A stretch of 35,178 nucleotides of DNA, taken from assembly GCA_030613055.1 (NCBI GenBank), contig JAUWMR010000047.1:1-35178 (forward strand), given 5' to 3'. A model generated the notes under the pieces. That model was not told the origin of the DNA. It saw only the letters and a program-made list of their open reading frames with translations, and searched no databases. The first letter of the stretch is position 1. Each line of letters starts with the position of its first letter. Position numbers and translations under genes: made by a program. Source of the stretch: Desulfobacteraceae bacterium. Lineage in GTDB: Bacteria; Desulfobacterota; DSM-4660; Desulfatiglandales; Desulfatiglandaceae. Positions 18,637-29,595 of the stretch are shown here, one piece after another.

Positions 18637-20004
18637 CTATCCCTTCCCTACTTCATTTACGATATGGGCCAATTTCTCTTCTACCGTCTTTCTTATTTCT
18701 CCCAGGGTTTTTGAGTCCTGTGCCTCAAAGCGCAGCACTAAAACCGGCTGTGTATTGGACGCCCTCACAAGGCCCCATCCCCCATCAAACAGGACCCTTG
18801 CTCCATCAACGTCAATGACCTGGTATTCTTTTTTGAATTCTTCTACTAACCTTTCCACGACCAGGAATTTTATTTCATCACTGCATTCCGTTCTTATCTC
18901 CGGCGTTGTTACCGTGGGAGGAACATCAGAAAGGAGTTCCGATAATCTCTTGTCCGTATGAGAAAGAATCTCCAAAAGCCTGGCTCCAGCGTAAATAGCA
19001 TCATCATATCCATAATAACGGTTGGCAAAGAAGATATGGCCACTCATTTCTCCCGCTAATTCGCCCTTTTCTTCCTTGAGCTTGGCCTTGATCAGGGAAT
19101 GGCCAACTTTCCACATTATCGCCTTGCCGCCATGCCTCTCAATATCGTCAAACAGGGTTTGAGAACACTTCACCTCGGATATAAAGGTCGCCCCCGGCAC
19201 CTCTTTTAGAATAGCCCTGGAAAACAGGATCATCAACTGGTCGCCCCACATGATATTACCGTTTTCATCCACAACGCCAATCCGATCCGAGTCTCCATCA
19301 TATGCTATTCCCAGATCCGCCTTTTGCTCCTTAACGGTATCAATTAAAGTCTCCAGGTTAGCGGGCAGGGTCGGATCAGGGTGATGGTTGGGGAAGTTGC
19401 CGTCCATTTCACTGAAAAGCTCGGTCACTTCTGCCCCTAACTTGCGATACAACGGGCCTGCTATAACCCCGCCGGTCCCGTTTCCCGAGTCAATAACCAC
19501 ATTGCATTTTCGCTCACCCATCTTGAGAAAGGAAACAGATGTATCTGTATAAGCTTCTATTATATCGTTTGATTCAAATTTTCCCTTCCCTTGCTCGAAT
19601 TCACCCTTTTCTAACATTTTCCTGATAACCTGGATCTCTTCTCCGTGAATCGAGCCTTTGCCAAGACATATTTTCAGCCCGTTGTTGTCCGGTGGGTTAT
19701 GGCTTCCCGTAATTACAATTCCCCCTCCCACATTTAGATGAAACAGAGAGAAATAGAGAAGAGGCGTCGGGACAATATCAAGATCAACGATACTGCATCC
19801 GGTATCCAGAACCCCCTGGGACAGCCCTTTGTGGATCCGGGGAGAACTCAACCTGCAATCCCTTGCCAGGCTTATCTTCTGGACGTTGTTTCTAATAAAA
19901 TAGGTCCCAAGGGTTCTTCCAAGGTCGTATACAATATCATCCGTAAAATCTTTATCAGCGATTCCTCTTATGTCATATTCGCGGAACATGTAAGGGTTTA
20001 CCAT
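18637..20004 (-). CDS. manB: Phosphomannomutase / phosphoglucomutase
   Basis: A 455-residue alpha-D-phosphohexomutase of the AlgC/ManB type that converts mannose-6-phosphate to mannose-1-phosphate (and often the glucose pair). Visible sites: the opening FREYDIRGIADKDF, the phosphoserine loop S101 in ITGSHNPPDNNG, the Mg loop DGDSDR, the sugar-specificity loop GEMSGH and the phosphate-binding loop RASNTQPVL. ATG at 20004 has AGGAGA six bases upstream. It starts 16 bases after the manC stop, so the two are one transcription unit providing mannose-1-phosphate and GDP-mannose. Confidence 0.93.
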   Translation of the reverse strand: MVNPYMFREYDIRGIADKDFTDDIVYDLGRTLGTYFIRNNVQKISLARDCRLSSPRIHKGLSQGVLDTGCSIVDLDIVPTPLLYFSLFHLNVGGGIVITGSHNPPDNNGLKICLGKGSIHGEEIQVIRKMLEKGEFEQGKGKFESNDIIEAYTDTSVSFLKMGERKCNVVIDSGNGTGGVIAGPLYRKLGAEVTELFSEMDGNFPNHHPDPTLPANLETLIDTVKEQKADLGIAYDGDSDRIGVVDENGNIMWGDQLMILFSRAILKEVPGATFISEVKCSQTLFDDIERHGGKAIMWKVGHSLIKAKLKEEKGELAGEMSGHIFFANRYYGYDDAIYAGARLLEILSHTDKRLSELLSDVPPTVTTPEIRTECSDEIKFLVVERLVEEFKKEYQVIDVDGARVLFDGGWGLVRASNTQPVLVLRFEAQDSKTLGEIRKTVEEKLAHIVNEVGKG

Positions 20005-20020
20005 AGATAATCTCCTTTCA

Positions 20021-21109
20021 TTAAAGAATTGACGTTGGTCCCTTTCTCTTTATCTCTTCAAGTATTTTCTTTACTTCCTGGGATTTCTTCAGGTCAGCCA
20101 CGAGAATAACGTCACCGGTATTTACAATAACAAGATCCTTTAGCCCTAATCCCACCACAATTTGATTACCAGATTGATTGAAAACAAATGAAGACTTTGT
20201 ATCAAGAAGCAGATTTTTTCCTTGAACCAGGTTTCCATTCTCATCAGTTTCATTCCGCCGCAAATCATAAAGCGACTCCCAGCTTCCCACGTCGCTCCAC
20301 CCAAAATCCCCTGGAATACTCAAGACAGGAAGCCCTGTCTTTTCCATTATACCGTAATCAATTGAAATTGAAGGAAACTCTTCGTAAACAGATCGGAGTA
20401 TTTCCCCGTAATCGTCCCTGTCCATGCTCTCTTCTATTTTCAGAAGCCCTTCATACACCTCGGGGAGATGAATCTCAATCTCCTTGAGAATTATCTCAGG
20501 TGTAAAGATGAATATCCCGCCGTTCCAGAGATAGTCACCGCTCTCTAAATATTTCAGCGCGTTATTTTGTTCAGGCTTTTCCACGAATTCTTTTATATTG
20601 TAGACACTGACCCCGTCAATTTCGTCCTGAACCGAGCCCCTCCTGAGATATCCATATCCCGTTTCAGGGCGTGTTGGTACGATACCAATTGTAACGATGG
20701 ACCCCTGAAAGGCCAACTTACCACCAACTGAAAGAATGCCGCGAAACCGCTCCTCATCGGTAATGAAATGGTCGGCAGGCAAAACTGCCATGGGTTCATC
20801 AATAACTCCATGTTTTCTCATGTAGACCGCGGCAAGTCCAATACAGGGCGCCGTATTCCGTCCAAAAGGCTCTTCAAGAATCACGACCTGCTTTTGACCT
20901 GAAACCTTGTTCAAAAGATCGTGGTGCGCTTCATTGCCGACAATAATAGTATTTTCTTCCCTGCATATCGGACTGACCCTGTCAAGCGTCTGCTCGATCA
21001 TTGTCTTTGAACCGATAATGTCCAGAAACTGTTTTGGCAACTTAGACCTGCTTGCGGGCCAGAATCTGGTCCCCGAACCCCCTGCCATTATGATAGGATA
21101 GATTTCCAT
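20021..21109 (-). CDS. manC: Mannose-1-phosphate guanylyltransferase
   Basis: A 362-residue nucleotidyltransferase that makes GDP-mannose from mannose-1-phosphate and GTP. The N-terminal pyrophosphorylase signature is IIMAGGSGTRFWPASRS with KLPKQFL. FVEKPEQN, GDYLWNGGIF and DFGWSDVGSWESL follow. It stops at about 360 residues, so it lacks the C-terminal cupin isomerase domain of bifunctional AlgA-type enzymes; isomerase activity is supplied by manA. ATG at 21109 is chosen over one eight codons upstream because GGGAGAG precedes it and homology begins there. Confidence 0.93.
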   Translation of the reverse strand: MEIYPIIMAGGSGTRFWPASRSKLPKQFLDIIGSKTMIEQTLDRVSPICREENTIIVGNEAHHDLLNKVSGQKQVVILEEPFGRNTAPCIGLAAVYMRKHGVIDEPMAVLPADHFITDEERFRGILSVGGKLAFQGSIVTIGIVPTRPETGYGYLRRGSVQDEIDGVSVYNIKEFVEKPEQNNALKYLESGDYLWNGGIFIFTPEIILKEIEIHLPEVYEGLLKIEESMDRDDYGEILRSVYEEFPSISIDYGIMEKTGLPVLSIPGDFGWSDVGSWESLYDLRRNETDENGNLVQGKNLLLDTKSSFVFNQSGNQIVVGLGLKDLVIVNTGDVILVADLKKSQEVKKILEEIKRKGPTSIL

Positions 21110-21262
21110 AAAACTCTCCCTAATTGTTAACATTTAGCAACCATTCAGATTCTTTAGACCAAATACGATTTTAAGGAAACACAGATGGTTACTTCGCATT
21201 AAAATAGCCACAGTTATATTTTCTTCCACGGTAATCATCAAATTCAGATCACGTCTTCCACA

Positions 21263-23152
21263 TTATGTTTCTCCAATAATCGGCCTGTTGAGCAACCTGC
21301 TTACCCTGGACAGAAACCTCTTTGGATTTACCGGTTTAGTGAGATAATCGTCAGCCCCTGCATCAATTCCTTCAATTTCAGAATCAATTCCTTTTTTTGC
21401 TGTAAGCATTATTATTGGAATATAGCGTGTAGTTAGCTGGGACCTGAGCTTCTTAATAAGGGTTATTCCGTCCATTTCCGGCATCATATAATCAGTTACC
21501 AGAAGGTCCGGCTTTTCCTGATAGGCCAATTTTAAGGCATCTACACCATTTTTGGCAGCAATGGTAAGATAGTTTTCGGATTTCAATAAATGGCAAAGGA
21601 TTTTCAGGGTTACTTCGTTATCATCTGCCACTAAGATCTTAGTGGACCTCACGCTGCTGACTGATACCGAAGGCCTCGAAAGCTGAGCCGTTTCCGTTTC
21701 CTTCTCATCCGGAATGCCCGGCTCAGTAACGGGCTCCTGAAATATGTCCCTGGCTTCGGGTGGAGCCACGCGAAATATCTCCTCAATAGTCGTCAACCCC
21801 TTTAACGCCTTTTTTATACCCTCCTCGCTCAGAGATTGAAAACCTTCTTTCTCGGCCGCCTTTTTCAGGGTCACCGCCGGCATATTCGGTACTATAATCT
21901 CCTTTAAGGAAGGCGTTATCAGCAGGATTTCGAACAGGCCTAAACGCCCTGAATAGCCGGAGTACTGGCAGTCTTCACAACCTGCCCCTTTCCAAAAAGT
22001 GGCACTTTTGTCTTTTCCAATATAGGGAGAAAGGCGATCCTTCATTTGTGCGCTCAGGGGATCAGGCACCTTGCACTTCTTGCATATCTTCCTCACGAGC
22101 CTTTGTCCAATCACTGCCACAAGCGAAGAGGAGACCAGGAAGCTGTCTACCCCCATATCCTGAAGCCTTCCCACAGCGGAAGAGGCATCATTAGTGTGCA
22201 GGGTAGATAAAACTAATTGCCCGGTCTGCGCGGCCTGGAACGCGATGCCGGCGGTCTCGGTATCCCTTATCTCCCCTACCATGATTATATCCGGGTCCTG
22301 TCTCAAGATAGACCTGAGCCCTGCCGCAAATGTGATCCCTGCCTTTGGGTTTATCTGCACCTGATTGATTCCGTCAATATCGAACTCAACCGGGTCTTCC
22401 ACGGTTATGATATTGACTTTGGGGGTATTGAGCCTGTTGAGACAGGCATAAAGCGTTGAAGATTTACCGCTCCCCGTAGGTCCGGTTACAAGAATGATTC
22501 CCTGGGGCATGCTTAGGGCGTTTATAAACTTCTTAAGGTCTTTGTCAAGGACGCCCAATTCATTGAGCGTCATTTGCACGGTGTCGGGGTTCAGGATACG
22601 TATGGTCACTTTCTCACCATATGAGGTGGGTATGGTAGAAACCCTTAAATCATAACCCTTATTCCCGTACCTGATGTGAGACCTGCCATCCTGCGGTTTT
22701 CTTCGAATAGAAATGTCTATGTCTGACAAAATTTTGACTCTGGATACGAGAGACGCGTGGACATGCTTGTCCGTTTGCATTATTTCACACATGATACCAT
22801 CTATGCGGTAGCGAATAATGACTGCATCCTTATGTGGTTCAATATGTATATCACTCGCCTTGAGCCTGAGGGCATCGGCAAGTATGGAGTTTACAAATCG
22901 CACAACCGGCGGGAGTTCCGTTAGTTTCAGAAGGTCCTGTTCTTCCTTTTCATCTTCCTCCACCTCTTTGATAATCTCTACCCCCTCACCCAGGCCCGGG
23001 ACCGCTCCCAAGGCCTTTTCGAGATCGTTCTTTGGATAATACATCTCGATCGTTTCGACTATATCTCTTTGAGAAGATACTGCAATGTGTATAGGCATTC
23101 CTGTTACAAAACGCAGGTCATCTATCGCATAAAAATCCAAAGGATTGACCAT
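21263..23152 (-). CDS. PilB/GspE-type ATPase fused to a receiver domain (main part, frame broken)
   Basis: 629 codons, continuing the gene whose N terminus is at 23118-23498 in another frame. From MVNPLDFYAIDDL onward it has the secretion/pilus ATPase core: Walker A GPTGSGKS (224-231), Asp box TVEDPVEF, Walker B DIIMVGE (288-294), His box LVLSTLHTNDA, and the metal-binding C357-x2-C360 / C392-x2-C395. After a Pro/Glu-rich linker (about 465-500) comes a receiver domain (504-625) with phospho-acceptor D554 (LLVTDYMMPEMDG) and TAKKG / LTKPVN switch residues. Such ATPases power type IV pilus extension or type II secretion. The one-base insertion responsible for the break is in the T5 run (plus strand) at 23170-23174. 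Confidence 0.88.
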   Translation of the reverse strand: MVNPLDFYAIDDLRFVTGMPIHIAVSSQRDIVETIEMYYPKNDLEKALGAVPGLGEGVEIIKEVEEDEKEEQDLLKLTELPPVVRFVNSILADALRLKASDIHIEPHKDAVIIRYRIDGIMCEIMQTDKHVHASLVSRVKILSDIDISIRRKPQDGRSHIRYGNKGYDLRVSTIPTSYGEKVTIRILNPDTVQMTLNELGVLDKDLKKFINALSMPQGIILVTGPTGSGKSSTLYACLNRLNTPKVNIITVEDPVEFDIDGINQVQINPKAGITFAAGLRSILRQDPDIIMVGEIRDTETAGIAFQAAQTGQLVLSTLHTNDASSAVGRLQDMGVDSFLVSSSLVAVIGQRLVRKICKKCKVPDPLSAQMKDRLSPYIGKDKSATFWKGAGCEDCQYSGYSGRLGLFEILLITPSLKEIIVPNMPAVTLKKAAEKEGFQSLSEEGIKKALKGLTTIEEIFRVAPPEARDIFQEPVTEPGIPDEKETETAQLSRPSVSVSSVRSTKILVADDNEVTLKILCHLLKSENYLTIAAKNGVDALKLAYQEKPDLLVTDYMMPEMDGITLIKKLRSQLTTRYIPIIMLTAKKGIDSEIEGIDAGADDYLTKPVNPKRFLSRVSRLLNRPIIGET

Positions 23153-23498
23153 TGCAACAATGGAGTCCCTTTTTAACTTCCTTGATCGGAACGAGGAGAT
23201 AATTTTCAGCCATTTCAGGCGGCACTAAGGAGATAACCTCTTTTGTGATTTCTATCTTATCAAGGTTGAGCAAAGGGATCTTGAGCTGGCTGGCCAAAGC
23301 ACTGGCTATCTCCTTGTCATCGGCAGCGCCCATATCCATGAGAATCTGACCGATTTTCTTTTTCTGTGTTTTCTGTATATCCAGGGCATTGGCTAAGGTC
23401 TTCCCATCTATTAGCCCGGCCTTAACCAAAATCTCACCTAACTTCATGCGCCTTGTGGCACCACTTTGGGTTTTTTCAGTTTTATTAGTATTTGTCAT
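23118..23498 (-). CDS. N-terminal MshEN-type domain of the split PilB/GspE ATPase
   Basis: 126 codons, of which about the first 106 are genuine: RRMKLGEILVKAGLIDG, then QILMDMGAADDKEIASALA, then LVPPEMAENYLLVPIKEVK. This is the T2SSE N-terminal (MshEN) domain, which in several pilus ATPases binds c-di-GMP. After IKEVK the frame goes off into KGLHCCNGQ; removing one A restores KRDSIVAMVNPLDF and joins it to the following part. AAGGAT precedes the ATG. A c-di-GMP-binding role would suit the adjacent GGDEF gene, but binding residues were not verified. Confidence 0.85.
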   Translation of the reverse strand: MTNTNKTEKTQSGATRRMKLGEILVKAGLIDGKTLANALDIQKTQKKKIGQILMDMGAADDKEIASALASQLKIPLLNLDKIEITKEVISLVPPEMAENYLLVPIKEVKKGLHCCNGQSFGFLCDR

Positions 23499-23637: not shown

Positions 23638-24558
23638 TTAGATCACTTTAGTCACTTTAGGTACTTCCTTTGCTACGCAAACACAATTCCTCCCCTCACG
23701 CTTTGCCTTGTACATGGCTTCATCCGCCCGTCCGATAAGTGAGTCTACATTATCTTCCAATCCAAACAGGAAAGATGCCACCCCAAAGCTCGCGGTAATA
23801 CGGACGGACTGTGACTGATCCGGCAACTTGATCTTCATTTCCTCAACCTTTTTTCGCATCCTTTCCGCAACAGACCGGGACTGGGAGGCATCCACACCCG
23901 GCAGGCACACAACAAACTCCTCACCTCCATATCGCCCAACAAAATCATATGGCCTTGCAGACTTTGACAATTGCTCTGTAAATCGTTGAAGCACGAGATC
24001 ACCCACCTGATGACCATAATTGTCATTAACTCCTTTGAAATGATCTATGTCTGTCAGTATAAGAGAAAGTGGGCTCTTCTCTCTATTTGATCTGAGCAAG
24101 GCCTCCTCCATCTTTTCCATAAAAGCCCTTCTGTTTAACACGCCGGTTAAGGGATCAACAGTCGCTAACCGCAGTATCCGTTGTTCAAGTTTAATAATCC
24201 TTTTACCAATCTTGACCCGGTATTTCAATTCTTCCTGGTCAAAAGGTTTGATCAAAAAATCATCCGCTCCTGCCTCTAATCCCTCAATAATATCTTCCTT
24301 TCTTCCCTTTGCCGTTAGAACGATAAAGTAGACGTAATCGGCCTTTTCCATTTTACGAATATTGCGGCACAGTTCCAGCCCATCCATATCTGGCATCATC
24401 CAGTCCGAAATGACCAGGTTCGGGGCTTCAGGCTCCTGAAGTGCTTCCCACGCCTCTCTGCCGTCACAGGTCACCATTACATCGTATCCCCACTTGCGCA
24501 GGAAAGTCTCTAATAAGCGCCTGGAAACAGCGTTGTCCTCAGCGATCAGAACCTTCAT
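23638..24558 (-). CDS. Receiver-GGDEF diguanylate cyclase (PleD/WspR-like)
   Basis: A 306-residue response regulator that should make c-di-GMP from two GTP. The receiver domain is residues 1-120, with acceptor D52 (LVISDWMMPDMDG) and T/K switch residues in VLTAKG and LIKPFD. The GGDEF domain starts at DPLTGVLNRRAF; the active-site loop is GGEEF (211-215), and an inhibitory I-site R202-PY-D205 lies five residues before it, so product inhibition is likely. GGAGA precedes the ATG. The last residues (EVPKVTKVI) are encoded by a CTAAAGTG repeat array. It is directly upstream of the ATPase gene in the same direction. Confidence 0.94.
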   Translation of the reverse strand: MKVLIAEDNAVSRRLLETFLRKWGYDVMVTCDGREAWEALQEPEAPNLVISDWMMPDMDGLELCRNIRKMEKADYVYFIVLTAKGRKEDIIEGLEAGADDFLIKPFDQEELKYRVKIGKRIIKLEQRILRLATVDPLTGVLNRRAFMEKMEEALLRSNREKSPLSLILTDIDHFKGVNDNYGHQVGDLVLQRFTEQLSKSARPYDFVGRYGGEEFVVCLPGVDASQSRSVAERMRKKVEEMKIKLPDQSQSVRITASFGVASFLFGLEDNVDSLIGRADEAMYKAKREGRNCVCVAKEVPKVTKVI

Positions 24559-24884: not shown

Positions 24885-24885
24885 C
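24606..24885 (-). mobile_element. MITE-like element with internally deleted GxxExxY gene, copy 2
   Basis: 280 bases, alignable end to end with 18333-18611. Left end GACAGGATTTACAGGATA and right end TATCCTGTTATCCTGTC are inverted. On the minus strand an ATG opens MKYKELTEKII, and after an A7 run the next frame gives PVGLIINFGERKVEIKRK, then VKDFRED and a stop. The junction is at the same place as in copy 1. The last base overlaps the stop codon of the hybrid kinase gene. Confidence 0.75.
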
Positions 24886-27800
24886 TAAATGTTTTTATCA
24901 TGTGAGCTATTAACAAGTTTCTTGATTGCTTTGAAAAGCTCTTCTGCTCTTATCGGCTTGGTCACATAATCATCCATGTCCGCCTCCAAACACCTTTCCC
25001 GATCTCCCTTCATGGCATGGGCGGTCAGGGCAATGATAGGAATCCTCTGGATTGACGATTGATGATTGACGATTGATGATTGTTCTCCTGTATCACCGTA
25101 TTCGGGTTTTAACCCTCGAGTTTCATGTTTTCTAATTTCTTTTGTGGCTTCATAGCCATCCATCTCCGGCATCTGCACGTCCATTAGAATGAGATCAAAA
25201 TGCTCCGCTTTAAACTTGTCCACGGCCTCCCTGCCATTGGCTGCAACTACCGGAGTGTGTCCAGCCTTCTCAAGCATGCGGATCACCAACTTCTGGTTCA
25301 CGATATTATCCTCGGCCACCAGTATACGGAACTTTCCTTCTCTTTTTGGAGCAAAGGACGGCACCTGGGCTTCCCGCATGGAATGGCGCGTAATTAGACG
25401 TGCGGAATCTTTGTCCTGATCTTTCACAGCAAGAACCGTCATAATGGTATCAAAAAGGTCTGACTGGCTGATAGGCTTAGTCAGGTAGGCGGCAAGACCA
25501 AGTTCCCGGCACCGGGCAGCGTCTCCCCGCCTGCCCGCAGAGGTCAACATCATGATAATGGGTGCTGTAACCATTTTGTGCTTGCGGACTTCTTCAGCAA
25601 CGGCAAAGCCATCCATTTCAGGCATCACCGCATCCAAAAGCATCAGGACAAAGGCCTCGCCCCTGTTACTGGCCCGCTCCAGGGCTTTAAAACCTGCCTT
25701 TCCGCTTTCCGCTACGGTCGGCTTCATCTGCCAATTGGTCAGTATCTGTTGGAGAATACGCCTGTTTGTGGCGTTGTCATCCACTACCAGCACAGGAAGA
25801 CCCTTAACATCAACAGGTTCGAGAGCTATGGGCCGCCTTGATGGCGCTGCGCTTATGTCAAACCAGGCAGTAAAATGAATCTTCGTTCCCTTGCCAACCT
25901 CGCTTTCAAGCCAAATGCATCCACCCATCATTTCAACTAAATGTTTGGTGATGGCCAGTCCCAGTCCCGTACCACCATACTTGCGCGTAATAGAACCGTC
26001 CGCCTGGGCAAAGGGCTCAAACATCAATTTCTGCTTATCAGGGGGGATACCGATACCCGTGTCGGTGACTGTGAAATGCAAACAAATTTTATCCTCTTCC
26101 TCGGATTCCCTCTCCACATTCACAACCACCTCACCCTTTTCTGTGAACTTGACAGAGTTTCCCGCAAGGTTCACCAGGATCTGGCGCAGGCGACCGGGAT
26201 CGCCAGTTAGTATTTCAGGGATATCAGGCTGAACATTATAGGCCAGCTCCAGCCCTTTTTCATGAGCATGGACAGAGATGGTCTTCAATGTATCACCTAC
26301 ACTTTCCGACAGGTTGAAATCCACAAGATCGAGATCAAGCTTCTTTGATTCTATCTTGGAGAAATCAAGGATGTCGTTGATCAAGGTCAGAAGTGAATAA
26401 GAAGAGGACTTTACTATATCAAGATATTCCTGCTGCTCAGCGTTGAGTTCCGTATCCAGGGCCAGGTCCGTCATCCCGATAATCGCGTTCATGGGCGTGC
26501 GGATCTCGTGACTCATGTTGGCCAAAAATTCGCTCTTGGCACGGTTGGCATCCTCTGCTTCACGCCGCGCCTGAACCAGGGCAGTTATGTTCTGATAAGT
26601 AAGAAGTTGTCTCCCGTCCTTCAAGAGCACAACCCGGAACTGTATGATCTTGTCCTCGCCATCTTTACATCTCACTGTAAAGATCCTTGGTTTTCTTTCT
26701 CCAATCTTTGAGTCATTAACTGCATCCGCCTTCCAGACAGAAAACACCTGTTTACGGTATTCTTCATCAGGATAGGCCCTTTCAAACCAGGTCTGTTTAT
26801 CCGGAAGCTCTTCAATGGTATAGCCGAAAAGCTCTGTAAATTTCGGATTGAAGGATTCAAATGTCATATCTGGATTCGTAATGGAAATTCCGAATGGTGA
26901 GGATTCAACTAACATTTTGAATTTTTCCTCACTCTCCTGCAATGCCTTCTCTGATTTCATCCGCTCGGTAATGTCTCTACCTGAGCCCCGAACTCCGATA
27001 GGTCCTGTTGAATCATTGGCCAATGTATTTCTGTATTCAATGATATGTTCACGGCCATCCTTTGTAACAACAACAATTAAACCTTCATCTTTTTTATTTT
27101 CTTTTACTCTCTTCAGGTAATCTTCGAATTGATGCTTGTGCCGTTCAGGTATTAGATCCCTTATATTCATATTGGCCAGATCGTCATCACTGAACCCGTA
27201 TTCCCTTTTCCAGGCAAGATTAGTTTCAATAAGATTTCCCTCTAAGTCATGAAAATACAAAAAGTCAGATACGTTATTAAAAATATCCTGGTATCTCTCC
27301 CTGCTCTCCCGCAGCGCCTCTTCAACTTGCTTGCGCTCGGCAATCTCTTTATTGAGGTCGTCTATTGATGTTGTGGTCTTCTTCAAATCCCCGGTCATCC
27401 TGTCAAACGCCCTTGAGAGTTGACCAATCTCGTCCTTTGAGTCCGTGCCTGTTTTATAATCCAGATTACCCTGGCCTATTATCTCAGTTCCTTCATGCAA
27501 CTTACGAATAGGCCTGGTTATTAATCTTGAAATAAAACTACCTAACAACCACGCAACTAAAGGAAAAATAAGCATTATAATGACAAGGGTGATTTTTAAT
27601 TTGTTTAAAGGAGCAAATGCCTTGGATTCATCAATCTCTGCCATAAGACACCACTGCATCTCCGGGATATGGTCGTGAACCCCAATAACCTTAACACCTC
27701 TATAATCTGTATATACCAAAACTTCATGCTCATGTGGTGTTGCGCCAAACCGTCTAGCGTCTTCAAAACATTTTCTTGTGTTTTCGTTATCAACTCTGAG

Positions 27801-28478
27801 TTTAAGGAAGGTATCTTCTATGAAACGGGAAGGGGTTATCATATAGCCATGTTTATTTATCAGATAAATCTCGCCTGTCTTGCCAAGACCGGTCCTATCG
27901 GCAGTTATTTCATTTAACTTGCTCAGGCTAATCCTGCCAACAATTATACCCAGGAGAGATTTTGTTTCTCTATCTGTAATCGGAGCGGAAACAGCAATCG
28001 CTTTCTGCCCTGTTATTCTGGAAAAACAGGCATCCTTTATATACGGCCCTGATTTTGCTTCCAAAAAATAGGCATCAGTGGACCTGTCCAGGCCAATGTT
28101 TTTTCTATCACTGGAGGTAGCGACTTTACCCTTTTTGTCCAGGACAAAAACTTCATTTACAGATTCACCGGCCTCTTCTGTTTGCTCCAGTCTCCTTTTG
28201 GTAATATCATATTTTTTCGCGTATCCCGGATCATGTTCGCTTGAATTCAAAAAGCTCTCAAGAACTATGCTCTGGGATAACTGCGTTATCCTTTCTTTCT
28301 GGGTGTTCAGGAACGTCTCTACATGTAGTGTCCTTGAATGTGCAGTCGTCTTTAAGTGATTAAATATCGCGCTTTCCAGATTGTTTCTGGAAATACCATA
28401 AAAAACCGGGCCTGAAATAGCTATGAGTACTGCGCCTATAATAAAAAAAGGAAGGCTTATCTTGTTGGCAATCTTCAT
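24885..28478 (-). CDS. Hybrid sensor histidine kinase (Cache-HAMP-PAS-PAS-HisKA-HATPase-REC-REC)
   Basis: 1197 residues from ATG 28478, which is preferred over the ATG 24 bases upstream because GGGAGG is well placed before it. Order: TM1 (8-27), double-Cache-like periplasmic sensor (30-290), TM2 (295-316), HAMP (317-370), coiled coil, PAS1 (395-505), PAS2 (518-640), HisKA with H657 (NMSHEIRTPMNAIIG), HATPase (760-875, with GTGLGLAITKHLVE), REC1 with D949, and REC2 with D1100. REC2 has about 25 extra residues (1120-1144), encoded partly by a repeat array. It lacks its own Hpt, which is encoded next door, as in multistep phosphorelays. A small-molecule ligand for the Cache domain is likely but unknown. 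Confidence 0.93.
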   Translation of the reverse strand: MKIANKISLPFFIIGAVLIAISGPVFYGISRNNLESAIFNHLKTTAHSRTLHVETFLNTQKERITQLSQSIVLESFLNSSEHDPGYAKKYDITKRRLEQTEEAGESVNEVFVLDKKGKVATSSDRKNIGLDRSTDAYFLEAKSGPYIKDACFSRITGQKAIAVSAPITDRETKSLLGIIVGRISLSKLNEITADRTGLGKTGEIYLINKHGYMITPSRFIEDTFLKLRVDNENTRKCFEDARRFGATPHEHEVLVYTDYRGVKVIGVHDHIPEMQWCLMAEIDESKAFAPLNKLKITLVIIMLIFPLVAWLLGSFISRLITRPIRKLHEGTEIIGQGNLDYKTGTDSKDEIGQLSRAFDRMTGDLKKTTTSIDDLNKEIAERKQVEEALRESRERYQDIFNNVSDFLYFHDLEGNLIETNLAWKREYGFSDDDLANMNIRDLIPERHKHQFEDYLKRVKENKKDEGLIVVVTKDGREHIIEYRNTLANDSTGPIGVRGSGRDITERMKSEKALQESEEKFKMLVESSPFGISITNPDMTFESFNPKFTELFGYTIEELPDKQTWFERAYPDEEYRKQVFSVWKADAVNDSKIGERKPRIFTVRCKDGEDKIIQFRVVLLKDGRQLLTYQNITALVQARREAEDANRAKSEFLANMSHEIRTPMNAIIGMTDLALDTELNAEQQEYLDIVKSSSYSLLTLINDILDFSKIESKKLDLDLVDFNLSESVGDTLKTISVHAHEKGLELAYNVQPDIPEILTGDPGRLRQILVNLAGNSVKFTEKGEVVVNVERESEEEDKICLHFTVTDTGIGIPPDKQKLMFEPFAQADGSITRKYGGTGLGLAITKHLVEMMGGCIWLESEVGKGTKIHFTAWFDISAAPSRRPIALEPVDVKGLPVLVVDDNATNRRILQQILTNWQMKPTVAESGKAGFKALERASNRGEAFVLMLLDAVMPEMDGFAVAEEVRKHKMVTAPIIMMLTSAGRRGDAARCRELGLAAYLTKPISQSDLFDTIMTVLAVKDQDKDSARLITRHSMREAQVPSFAPKREGKFRILVAEDNIVNQKLVIRMLEKAGHTPVVAANGREAVDKFKAEHFDLILMDVQMPEMDGYEATKEIRKHETRGLKPEYGDTGEQSSIVNHQSSIQRIPIIALTAHAMKGDRERCLEADMDDYVTKPIRAEELFKAIKKLVNSSHDKNI
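25051..25085. repeat. ATTGACG/ATTGATG array inside the kinase REC2 coding region
   Basis: Five 7-base units (ATTGACG, ATTGATG, ATTGACG, ATTGATG, ATTGTTC), read on the plus strand. In the minus-strand kinase frame they encode SSIVNHQSSIQ within the extra loop between the receiver's third helix and fourth strand. Inverse units (CAATCAT) occur in intergenic DNA at 7744-7767 and 28530-28560. Confidence 0.85.
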
Positions 28479-28529
28479 TTTCTGCCTCCCAATTATTTTC
28501 ACCTCAAAATTTTAAGTAAGTAAAAGCGT

Positions 28530-29013: not shown

Positions 29014-29595
29014 TCATTTTGTCATGAGGATGTCCTCAATCGTATTTTTTAATTCCTCCAACCCAAAAGGTTTGGCCATGATTGCTTCCACCCTGTAGCG
29101 CCTTAACTTGGCAAGGTTTTCCTCTGTCGCATGGCCAGTTATAATAATAATTCGGGTGCCAGGGCTGGTCTGTTTGATCTTTTCTGCTAAATTAAAACCA
29201 TTTAGTTGCGGCATGAGCAGGTCCAGGAGCACAAGATCCGGCTTTGAATCCCCAATAAAAAGGGCGGCATCCAGAGGATTACTGAAGGTCTCTAATTGGT
29301 ACAGATATGGCATGTCAGCAGTCGAAAAGAAATTTTCCAGCAGATTCAAAATGGTATCGTCATCATCAACGGCCACTACCAGTTTCTTTTTCTCAATTTG
29401 CAGAAAAGAAGGAATGGGGATGCCCTGATCCTTTAAAAAATCCCTTAAATCCTCCTTTGTAACCTTGTACCTTCCACCGGGGGTTCGCGCCGCCTTTAGA
29501 GCCCCCTTCTTTATCCAGTTGGTGACAGTTACCCTGTGTATGCCTAAGATTTTTGCCAGATCGATTGATGAATAGCTTTCGTCAAAAATTCCCAT
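29014..29595 (-). CDS. Excisionase-type HTH fused to a response-regulator receiver
   Basis: 193 residues. Residues 8-58 are a MerR/excisionase-like helix-turn-helix (YSSIDLAKILGIHRVTVTNW, then RTPGGRYKVTKEDLRDFL). Residues 71-190 are a receiver with acidic pocket AVDDDD, acceptor D125 (LVLLDLLMPQLNG), a switch Thr in IIITGHA and a Lys in MAKPFG. The DNA-binding domain is at the N terminus, the reverse of most response regulators. GGAGAGAGGG is upstream of the ATG. It is first in the signalling locus and 34 bases from the Hpt gene, so it is a likely end point of the phosphorelay and may regulate the locus. Confidence 0.92.
   Translation of the reverse strand: MGIFDESYSSIDLAKILGIHRVTVTNWIKKGALKAARTPGGRYKVTKEDLRDFLKDQGIPIPSFLQIEKKKLVVAVDDDDTILNLLENFFSTADMPYLYQLETFSNPLDAALFIGDSKPDLVLLDLLMPQLNGFNLAEKIKQTSPGTRIIIITGHATEENLAKLRRYRVEAIMAKPFGLEELKNTIEDILMTK

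Follow-up and report, generated by a model that had tools for sequence, protein, structure and literature searches.

The window analysed here, that is, the whole stretch of DNA, comprises 35,178 nucleotides of contig JAUWMR010000047.1 from a Desulfobacteraceae bacterium. In the direction of transcription, its minus strand carries an HTH-receiver gene, a gene for a histidine phosphotransfer protein (Hpt), a hybrid histidine kinase, a REC-GGDEF cyclase, a motor gene and mannose-sugar genes. The features used below, with the means by which each was assigned, are as follows.

29014..29595, minus strand: HTH_17-receiver regulator, from the domain scan; its counterpart in the related locus L047 shows 90% identity
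28614..28979, minus strand: stand-alone Hpt with an HSLKG phospho-histidine motif, from the domain scan and motif
24885..28502, minus strand: hybrid histidine kinase with dCache, HAMP, PAS, HisKA, HATPase and receivers, from the domain scan
23638..24558, minus strand: REC-GGDEF diguanylate cyclase with a GGEEF active site and RxxD I-site spacing, from the domain scan and motifs
23118..23498, minus strand: ORF A, 126 residues, N-terminal half of MshEN, ending at a stop in its own frame, from the ORF list, Pfam and NCBIfam NF053729
23286..23444, minus strand: two 24-residue c-di-GMP motifs with a 5-residue spacer (ORF A residues 19-71), from motif scoring
23150..23180, minus strand: region in which MshEN is split by a frame change (position approximate), from the differing frames on either side and the single frame in relatives
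21263..23152, minus strand: ORF B, 629 residues, with the C-terminal half of MshEN, the T2SSE ATPase, a linker and a receiver, from the ORF list and Pfam
21770..22918, minus strand: T2SSE ATPase domain (ORF B residues 79-461), Pfam, 450 bits
21638..21769, minus strand: weakly conserved linker, 44 residues in the window copy, from the alignment
21302..21637, minus strand: receiver domain (ORF B residues 506-617), Pfam PF00072, 96.8 bits
21491..21493, minus strand: codon of the phospho-acceptor D554 (ORF B numbering), from the alignment
20021..21133, minus strand: mannose-1-phosphate guanylyltransferase-like gene downstream of the motor gene, with a counterpart in L047, from sequence
18637..20004, minus strand: phosphomannomutase-like gene downstream of the motor gene, with a counterpart in L047, from sequence

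The gene at 20021..21133 is a putative ManC and that at 18637..20004 a putative ManB, by their sequences.

The motor region at 21263-23498 consists of two ORFs in different frames that overlap by 35 bases, and no single open frame runs through it. The match to the Pfam MshEN profile is shared between them, with profile positions 2-39 of 90 in ORF A (22.5 bits against a cut-off of 23.1) and positions 45-85 in ORF B, and the frame of ORF B meets a stop codon just upstream. From these two observations we conclude that MshEN is cut by the frame change. The same place is open in relatives, where the search for the same fusion proposed in the first-pass annotation returned 20 single-frame MshEN-ATPase-REC proteins of 735 to 780 residues. 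As sequenced, the window copy cannot give one protein having both inputs, c-di-GMP and phosphorylation. A single motor with this domain order had been described for the window; its domains are all present, but they are divided between two ORFs with MshEN split, and the frame break had gone unmentioned.

The split in the window genome has two candidate causes: a gene that works but was misread in sequencing or assembly, or an allele that broke recently. Were the break real, the window copy would be a recent pseudogene or truncated allele from which only an ATPase-receiver protein without the c-di-GMP motif could be made. The position of the frame change inside MshEN, the start codon available at 23152 and the copy in genome G154, which is also broken though at another frame break, are consistent with this reading; on the other side, there is no further sign of decay, with ORF B intact and most differences between its receiver and ATPase and those of L047 at synonymous sites, and draft assemblies can contain erroneous frame changes. 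We consider a true pseudogene possible but less likely than not, and it would apply to the window genome alone, being compatible with a dual-input motor as the explanation for the family. Programmed frameshifting that joins ORF A and ORF B would make use of the 35-base overlap and restore the full domain set, but relatives read through the same place in a single frame and no shift signal was recognised in the sequence by eye, so that we give it almost no credence.

The distribution of the fusion was determined using ORF B as the query. At E<=1e-150, 14 of the 85 genomes of the order gave a match, the window genome counted, and a search of the class covered the identical 85 genomes and added nothing. 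The end of the ATPase and the receiver lie in one frame in all 13 of the other carriers, 11 of which are full length while two (G066 and G056) are contig pieces spanning the junction. Thus a receiver encoded as a separate gene, which the first-pass annotation had named as an observation that should count against the fusion, was not seen in these close relatives. At E<=1e-138, 13 of 395 genomes of the phylum matched, five from the order and eight from outside it. Outside the order the fusion is in one frame in G368, G329, G387 and G215, the G154 copy is frame-broken, G142 and G340 carry the protein without a receiver, and G159 has two distant copies. The G154 copy (L064, 6162-8392) is split within the end of the ATPase. 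Named carriers include Desulfoluna spongiiphila AA1, a named isolate with an intact copy, a Desulfoluna MAG, Desulfobacteraceae RAAP-1 and Deltaproteobacteria MAGs. Of the two G159 copies, one (G159:C188; L067, 8789-12715; 43% identity over the ATPase region) has the receiver as a separate gene just downstream and the other (L068) is fused, an arrangement that suggests how such fusions may arise.

A tree was built from the ATPase domain with 56 rows, leaving out L004, which is a copy of the window gene, and the partial or split L057, L058 and the 526-residue row of L064. Nineteen fused sequences, the window included, form one clade (bootstrap 95, SH-aLRT 93), to which the receiver-less G142 and G340 are sister (97/96). 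The fused sequences of G215 and G074 fall outside this clade (92/77), and those of G159 are separate. Since the receiver label needs three changes on the tree, either one gain with loss or two gains is possible. At the level of the family, then, the MshEN-ATPase-receiver fusion exists, but the window does not hold an intact copy of it.

ORF B ends in a complete Response_reg domain (profile positions 1-110 of 111), with D554 at the phospho-acceptor position as the first-pass annotation had it. When ORF B was aligned with the 20 relatives, D510, D511, D554, T584 and K606 were each found in 21 of 21 sequences, and the two acidic residues, phospho-acceptor aspartate, T/S and lysine looked for in a phosphorylatable receiver are all present in sequence. 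A lack of conservation at these residues had been named in the first-pass annotation as counting against the fusion; in this set they are invariant. The linker between ATPase and receiver varies from 41 to 52 residues across the 21 sequences, and its mean majority conservation is 0.336, compared with 0.754 in the ATPase and 0.719 in the receiver. Between the window and L047, dN and dS are 0.117 and 1.24 for the ATPase, 0.139 and 1.03 for the receiver, and 0.585 and 1.09 for the linker. These values indicate purifying selection on the receiver and much less on the linker, and together with the conserved residues they argue that the receiver is maintained as a working domain, probably on a loose tether. 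An AlphaFold2 model of six intact relatives from the named loci, with the Desulfoluna spongiiphila protein first, gave a mean pLDDT of 40.2 and a pTM of 0.26, with about 70-85 reached only in the MshEN motif region and part of the receiver. The model is too poor to place the receiver, and no domain arrangement was taken from it.

For the N-terminal input, the c-di-GMP motif of MshEN is described as two 24-residue motifs, 5 residues apart (PMC5013675, PMC10333796). Of the 11 positions scored per motif, ORF A has all 11 in one motif and 9 in the other, where K was accepted in place of R at the first position, and matches the c-di-GMP motif model NCBIfam NF053729 with 53.8 bits (cut-off 38). Paralogues from the same genome vary in this respect: L001, L002, L006, L007 and L008 keep 4-6 of 11 positions per motif, and L003 and L005 keep 9-10. 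By its motif, ORF A is a putative MshEN-type c-di-GMP receptor, and some MshEN domains are reported no longer to bind c-di-GMP (PMC5013675, section 12).

The match of ORF B to T2SSE (450 bits against a cut-off of 24.9) places it among the Type II/IV secretion ATPases, and its catalytic features are retained: K230 of Walker A and E294 of Walker B occur in all 21 sequences, the His-box H319 is present in 20 of 21 (one gap), and the four metal-type cysteines are present in 20 or 21 of 21. For the PilB equivalog TIGR02538 (cut-off 675.65), L047, L073 and ORF B scored 608.2, 612.2 and 541.6, and for the GspE equivalog TIGR02533 (cut-off 630.25) the intact relatives L047 and L073 scored 575.1 and 555.2 and ORF B 559.6. 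With both equivalog cut-offs missed, the fused protein is probably an extra, orphan motor that is PilB-like yet not PilB by the cut-off test. The window genome has 12 T2SSE matches; seven of the paralogues were scanned, of which L003 alone exceeds the cut-off for PilB (725.9 against 675.65), while L001 and L002 exceed that for GspE. No T2SSF platform gene shares a contig with the fused gene in ten of the ten genomes examined, so that in these genomes the fused gene does not have the setting of a pil or gsp operon motor. In the window genome, a lone T2SSF gene on contig C21, which has a PilS-like kinase in its region, may encode the PilC of a pilus system. The T2SSF neighbourhood of G154 had no pilus genes among the five proteins scanned.

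Several motors of the window genome bear different added sensory domains. L003 (1069-3390; own genome contig C47, 59988-61142) is an MshEN-ATPase with a C-terminal cNMP_binding domain, and L008 (1489-3813; contig C14) is a GAF-MshEN-ATPase paralogue.

The neighbours of the fused gene often include genes that could supply the two inputs. An Hpt gene lies within 8 kb upstream and on the same strand in 8 of 19 genomes (G000, G019, G020, G076, G074, G368, G387 and G154), as against 0.11 expected from each genome's own Hpt count, the set leaving aside G142 and G340, which have no receiver, and G159, whose copies are distant. Four of 26 records (the window, L047, L053 and L062) have a REC-GGDEF gene immediately upstream, the 26 including the receiver-less homologue at L065 and L066; the chance expectation over the ten genomes searched is 0.017 such neighbours within 2.5 kb, and the four genomes have only 5, 2, 6 and 3 GGDEF matches at E<=1e-20. 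In both comparisons the distance limits were chosen after the loci had been seen and independent genomes and even gene placement are assumed, and since the genomes are related the probabilities make the case look stronger than it is. Both kinds of neighbour, Hpt and REC-GGDEF, occur more often than chance would give.

The upstream Hpt is also found at the named loci L071, L083 and L084, and each of the eleven upstream Hpts has a phospho-histidine motif. The gap between the Hpt and ATPase genes is 42-135 bases (L056, L060, L071, L083 and L084), and in G154 the Hpt is in the same frame as a kinase. An Hpt near the gene was not found in 11 of the 19 genomes, at least five of which (G062, G023, G066, G056 and G073) have less than 3 kb of contig upstream, and none lies near either Desulfoluna copy. 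As a control, the listed non-fused ATPases of ten genomes, picked so as to contain all eight with an upstream Hpt, were read by eye, and none had a same-strand Hpt within 8 kb upstream; three (G000:C43, G020:C2 and G329:C4) had an Hpt 2-3 kb downstream. The Hpt gene of G000:C43 (L150, 3215-4789) is CheA-like, with Hpt, HATPase_c and a weak CheW, and lies a few kb from an ATPase of roughly 800 residues with a T2SSE domain. In G215 (L063, 11404-17287), CheW, MCP and CheA-receiver genes directly follow the fused ATPase.

Six of 26 records (L049, L051, L054, L057, L072 and L073) have pilin-like N_methyl genes close to the ATPase. A zinc-ribbon-like protein with a hydrophobic stretch, F1, was considered as a partner specific to the fused family and was dropped, since 47 of the order's 85 genomes encode F1-like proteins, many of them beside non-fused ATPases, and none was found in the window genome. 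F1-like genes were noted at L047 (13803-14381), L049 (3241-3816), L054 (6558-7136) and L057 (13783-14376); these small proteins have a B-box-like zinc motif below cut-off, and several adjoin a pilin-like N_methyl gene.

We base a function for the family on its domain content, the conservation of catalytic residues, the motifs for c-di-GMP, the purifying selection acting on the receiver, the recurrent Hpt and cyclase neighbours and, in other lineages, pilin-like neighbours. They point to a PilB/GspE-like accessory type IV filament motor in which c-di-GMP and phosphorylation would be integrated in one chain, a reading to which we give an even chance. Phosphotransfer, c-di-GMP binding, an effect on ATPase activity and the filament that the motor powers are inferred. 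The hybrid kinase, or CheA in one lineage, would hand phosphate to the Hpt, from which it would pass to the motor's tethered C-terminal receiver and, at loci with a REC-GGDEF cyclase alongside, to that cyclase's receiver as well. The c-di-GMP made by this cyclase would bind the N-terminal MshEN of the same motor, and one relay would then drive both inputs in a feed-forward manner, with the motor running only when both are set. That the same Hpt would feed both cyclase and motor is suggested by the gene order and by established two-component logic. The more specific proposal, that one phosphorelay phosphorylates a filament motor and activates the adjacent cyclase as a feed-forward coincidence detector kept across several desulfobacterial lineages, is a tentative one that we hold with less confidence than the motor function itself. 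Control of one motor by c-di-GMP and by phosphorylation had been suggested for the window in the first-pass annotation; the c-di-GMP motif and the recurrent Hpt and REC-GGDEF neighbours support it in part, but the ATPase falls under the PilB and GspE cut-offs and the window copy is split.

Several observations count against the dual-input filament motor: the split window copy, the contigs without T2SSF, the PilB and GspE scores below cut-off, the 11 of 19 genomes in which no Hpt was found near the gene, the receiver-less sisters G142 and G340, the separate receiver of G159:C188 and the poor structure model. The main rival, prompted by the mannose genes that follow the motor gene in the window and in L047, holds that the protein serves chiefly as a signalling ATPase in exopolysaccharide production and not as a filament motor, with c-di-GMP and phosphorylation setting a conformation that controls polysaccharide output. 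PilB of Myxococcus xanthus signals in exopolysaccharide regulation apart from pilus assembly (PMC5544727), and the platform protein absent from the contig would fit such a role. However, of the 26 records only those of the window and its near relative L047 have the mannose genes after the motor gene, 20 or 21 of 21 sequences retain the Walker, His-box and cysteine residues, and pilin-like genes are neighbours in six records; we therefore regard an exopolysaccharide role as unlikely. The receiver may alternatively be a phosphate sink or docking module that does not gate the motor. Its tether of variable length and the sisters that do without a receiver agree with this, but a purely structural module would not need five catalytic residues that are invariant in 21 of 21 sequences, and a sink would presumably not need to be fused to a motor, so that this explanation too seems improbable. 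A filament motor gated by both inputs remains our preferred reading.

Parts of this architecture are known from other systems. Like the fused family, the MshE/PilB extension ATPases (PMC5013675, PMC11656802) place a T2SSE ATPase after an MshEN that bears a pair of 24-residue motifs, but the passages on them describe no C-terminal receiver, and the fused family scores under the PilB and GspE cut-offs. Bdellovibrio Bd2402 (PMC5013675) likewise combines MshEN and a two-component receiver in one protein, and section 12 of the same source lists REC among the domains associated with MshEN, so the pairing of MshEN with a receiver is not new. The accessory extension motor TfpB (NF053534), known from the two-motor system of Acinetobacter baylyi (PMC8213720), is similarly an extra PilB-like motor beside another PilB. 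Fused-family proteins, however, score only 463.1 and 472.9 bits against the TfpB cut-off of 850. TfpB is not known to carry a receiver. The PilB-cNMP protein L003 and the GAF-ATPase L008 of the window genome resemble the family as MshEN motors with an added sensory domain, but this is a C-terminal cNMP_binding or an N-terminal GAF domain and not a receiver. In FimX-PilZ-PilB control a receiver and c-di-GMP binding also converge on a pilus motor, but both reside on a separate protein whose REC is without the phospho-acceptor aspartate (PMC11656802).

Pilus motors are known to respond to c-di-GMP and partner proteins. In the same account of type IV pilus control, two-component input sits on separate proteins such as PilG, PilH, PdeR or FimX (PMC11656802). 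A literature search found no characterised MshEN-ATPase-receiver protein; the architecture may figure in Supplementary Fig. 3b and Table 4 of PMC5013675. The present analysis contributes a predicted motor family of three domains that is conserved, keeps its catalytic residues and repeatedly has an Hpt or a cyclase gene beside it. If the proposal is true, a motor with its own receiver, Hpt and cyclase would allow two-component control to be studied with one protein and one phosphodonor.
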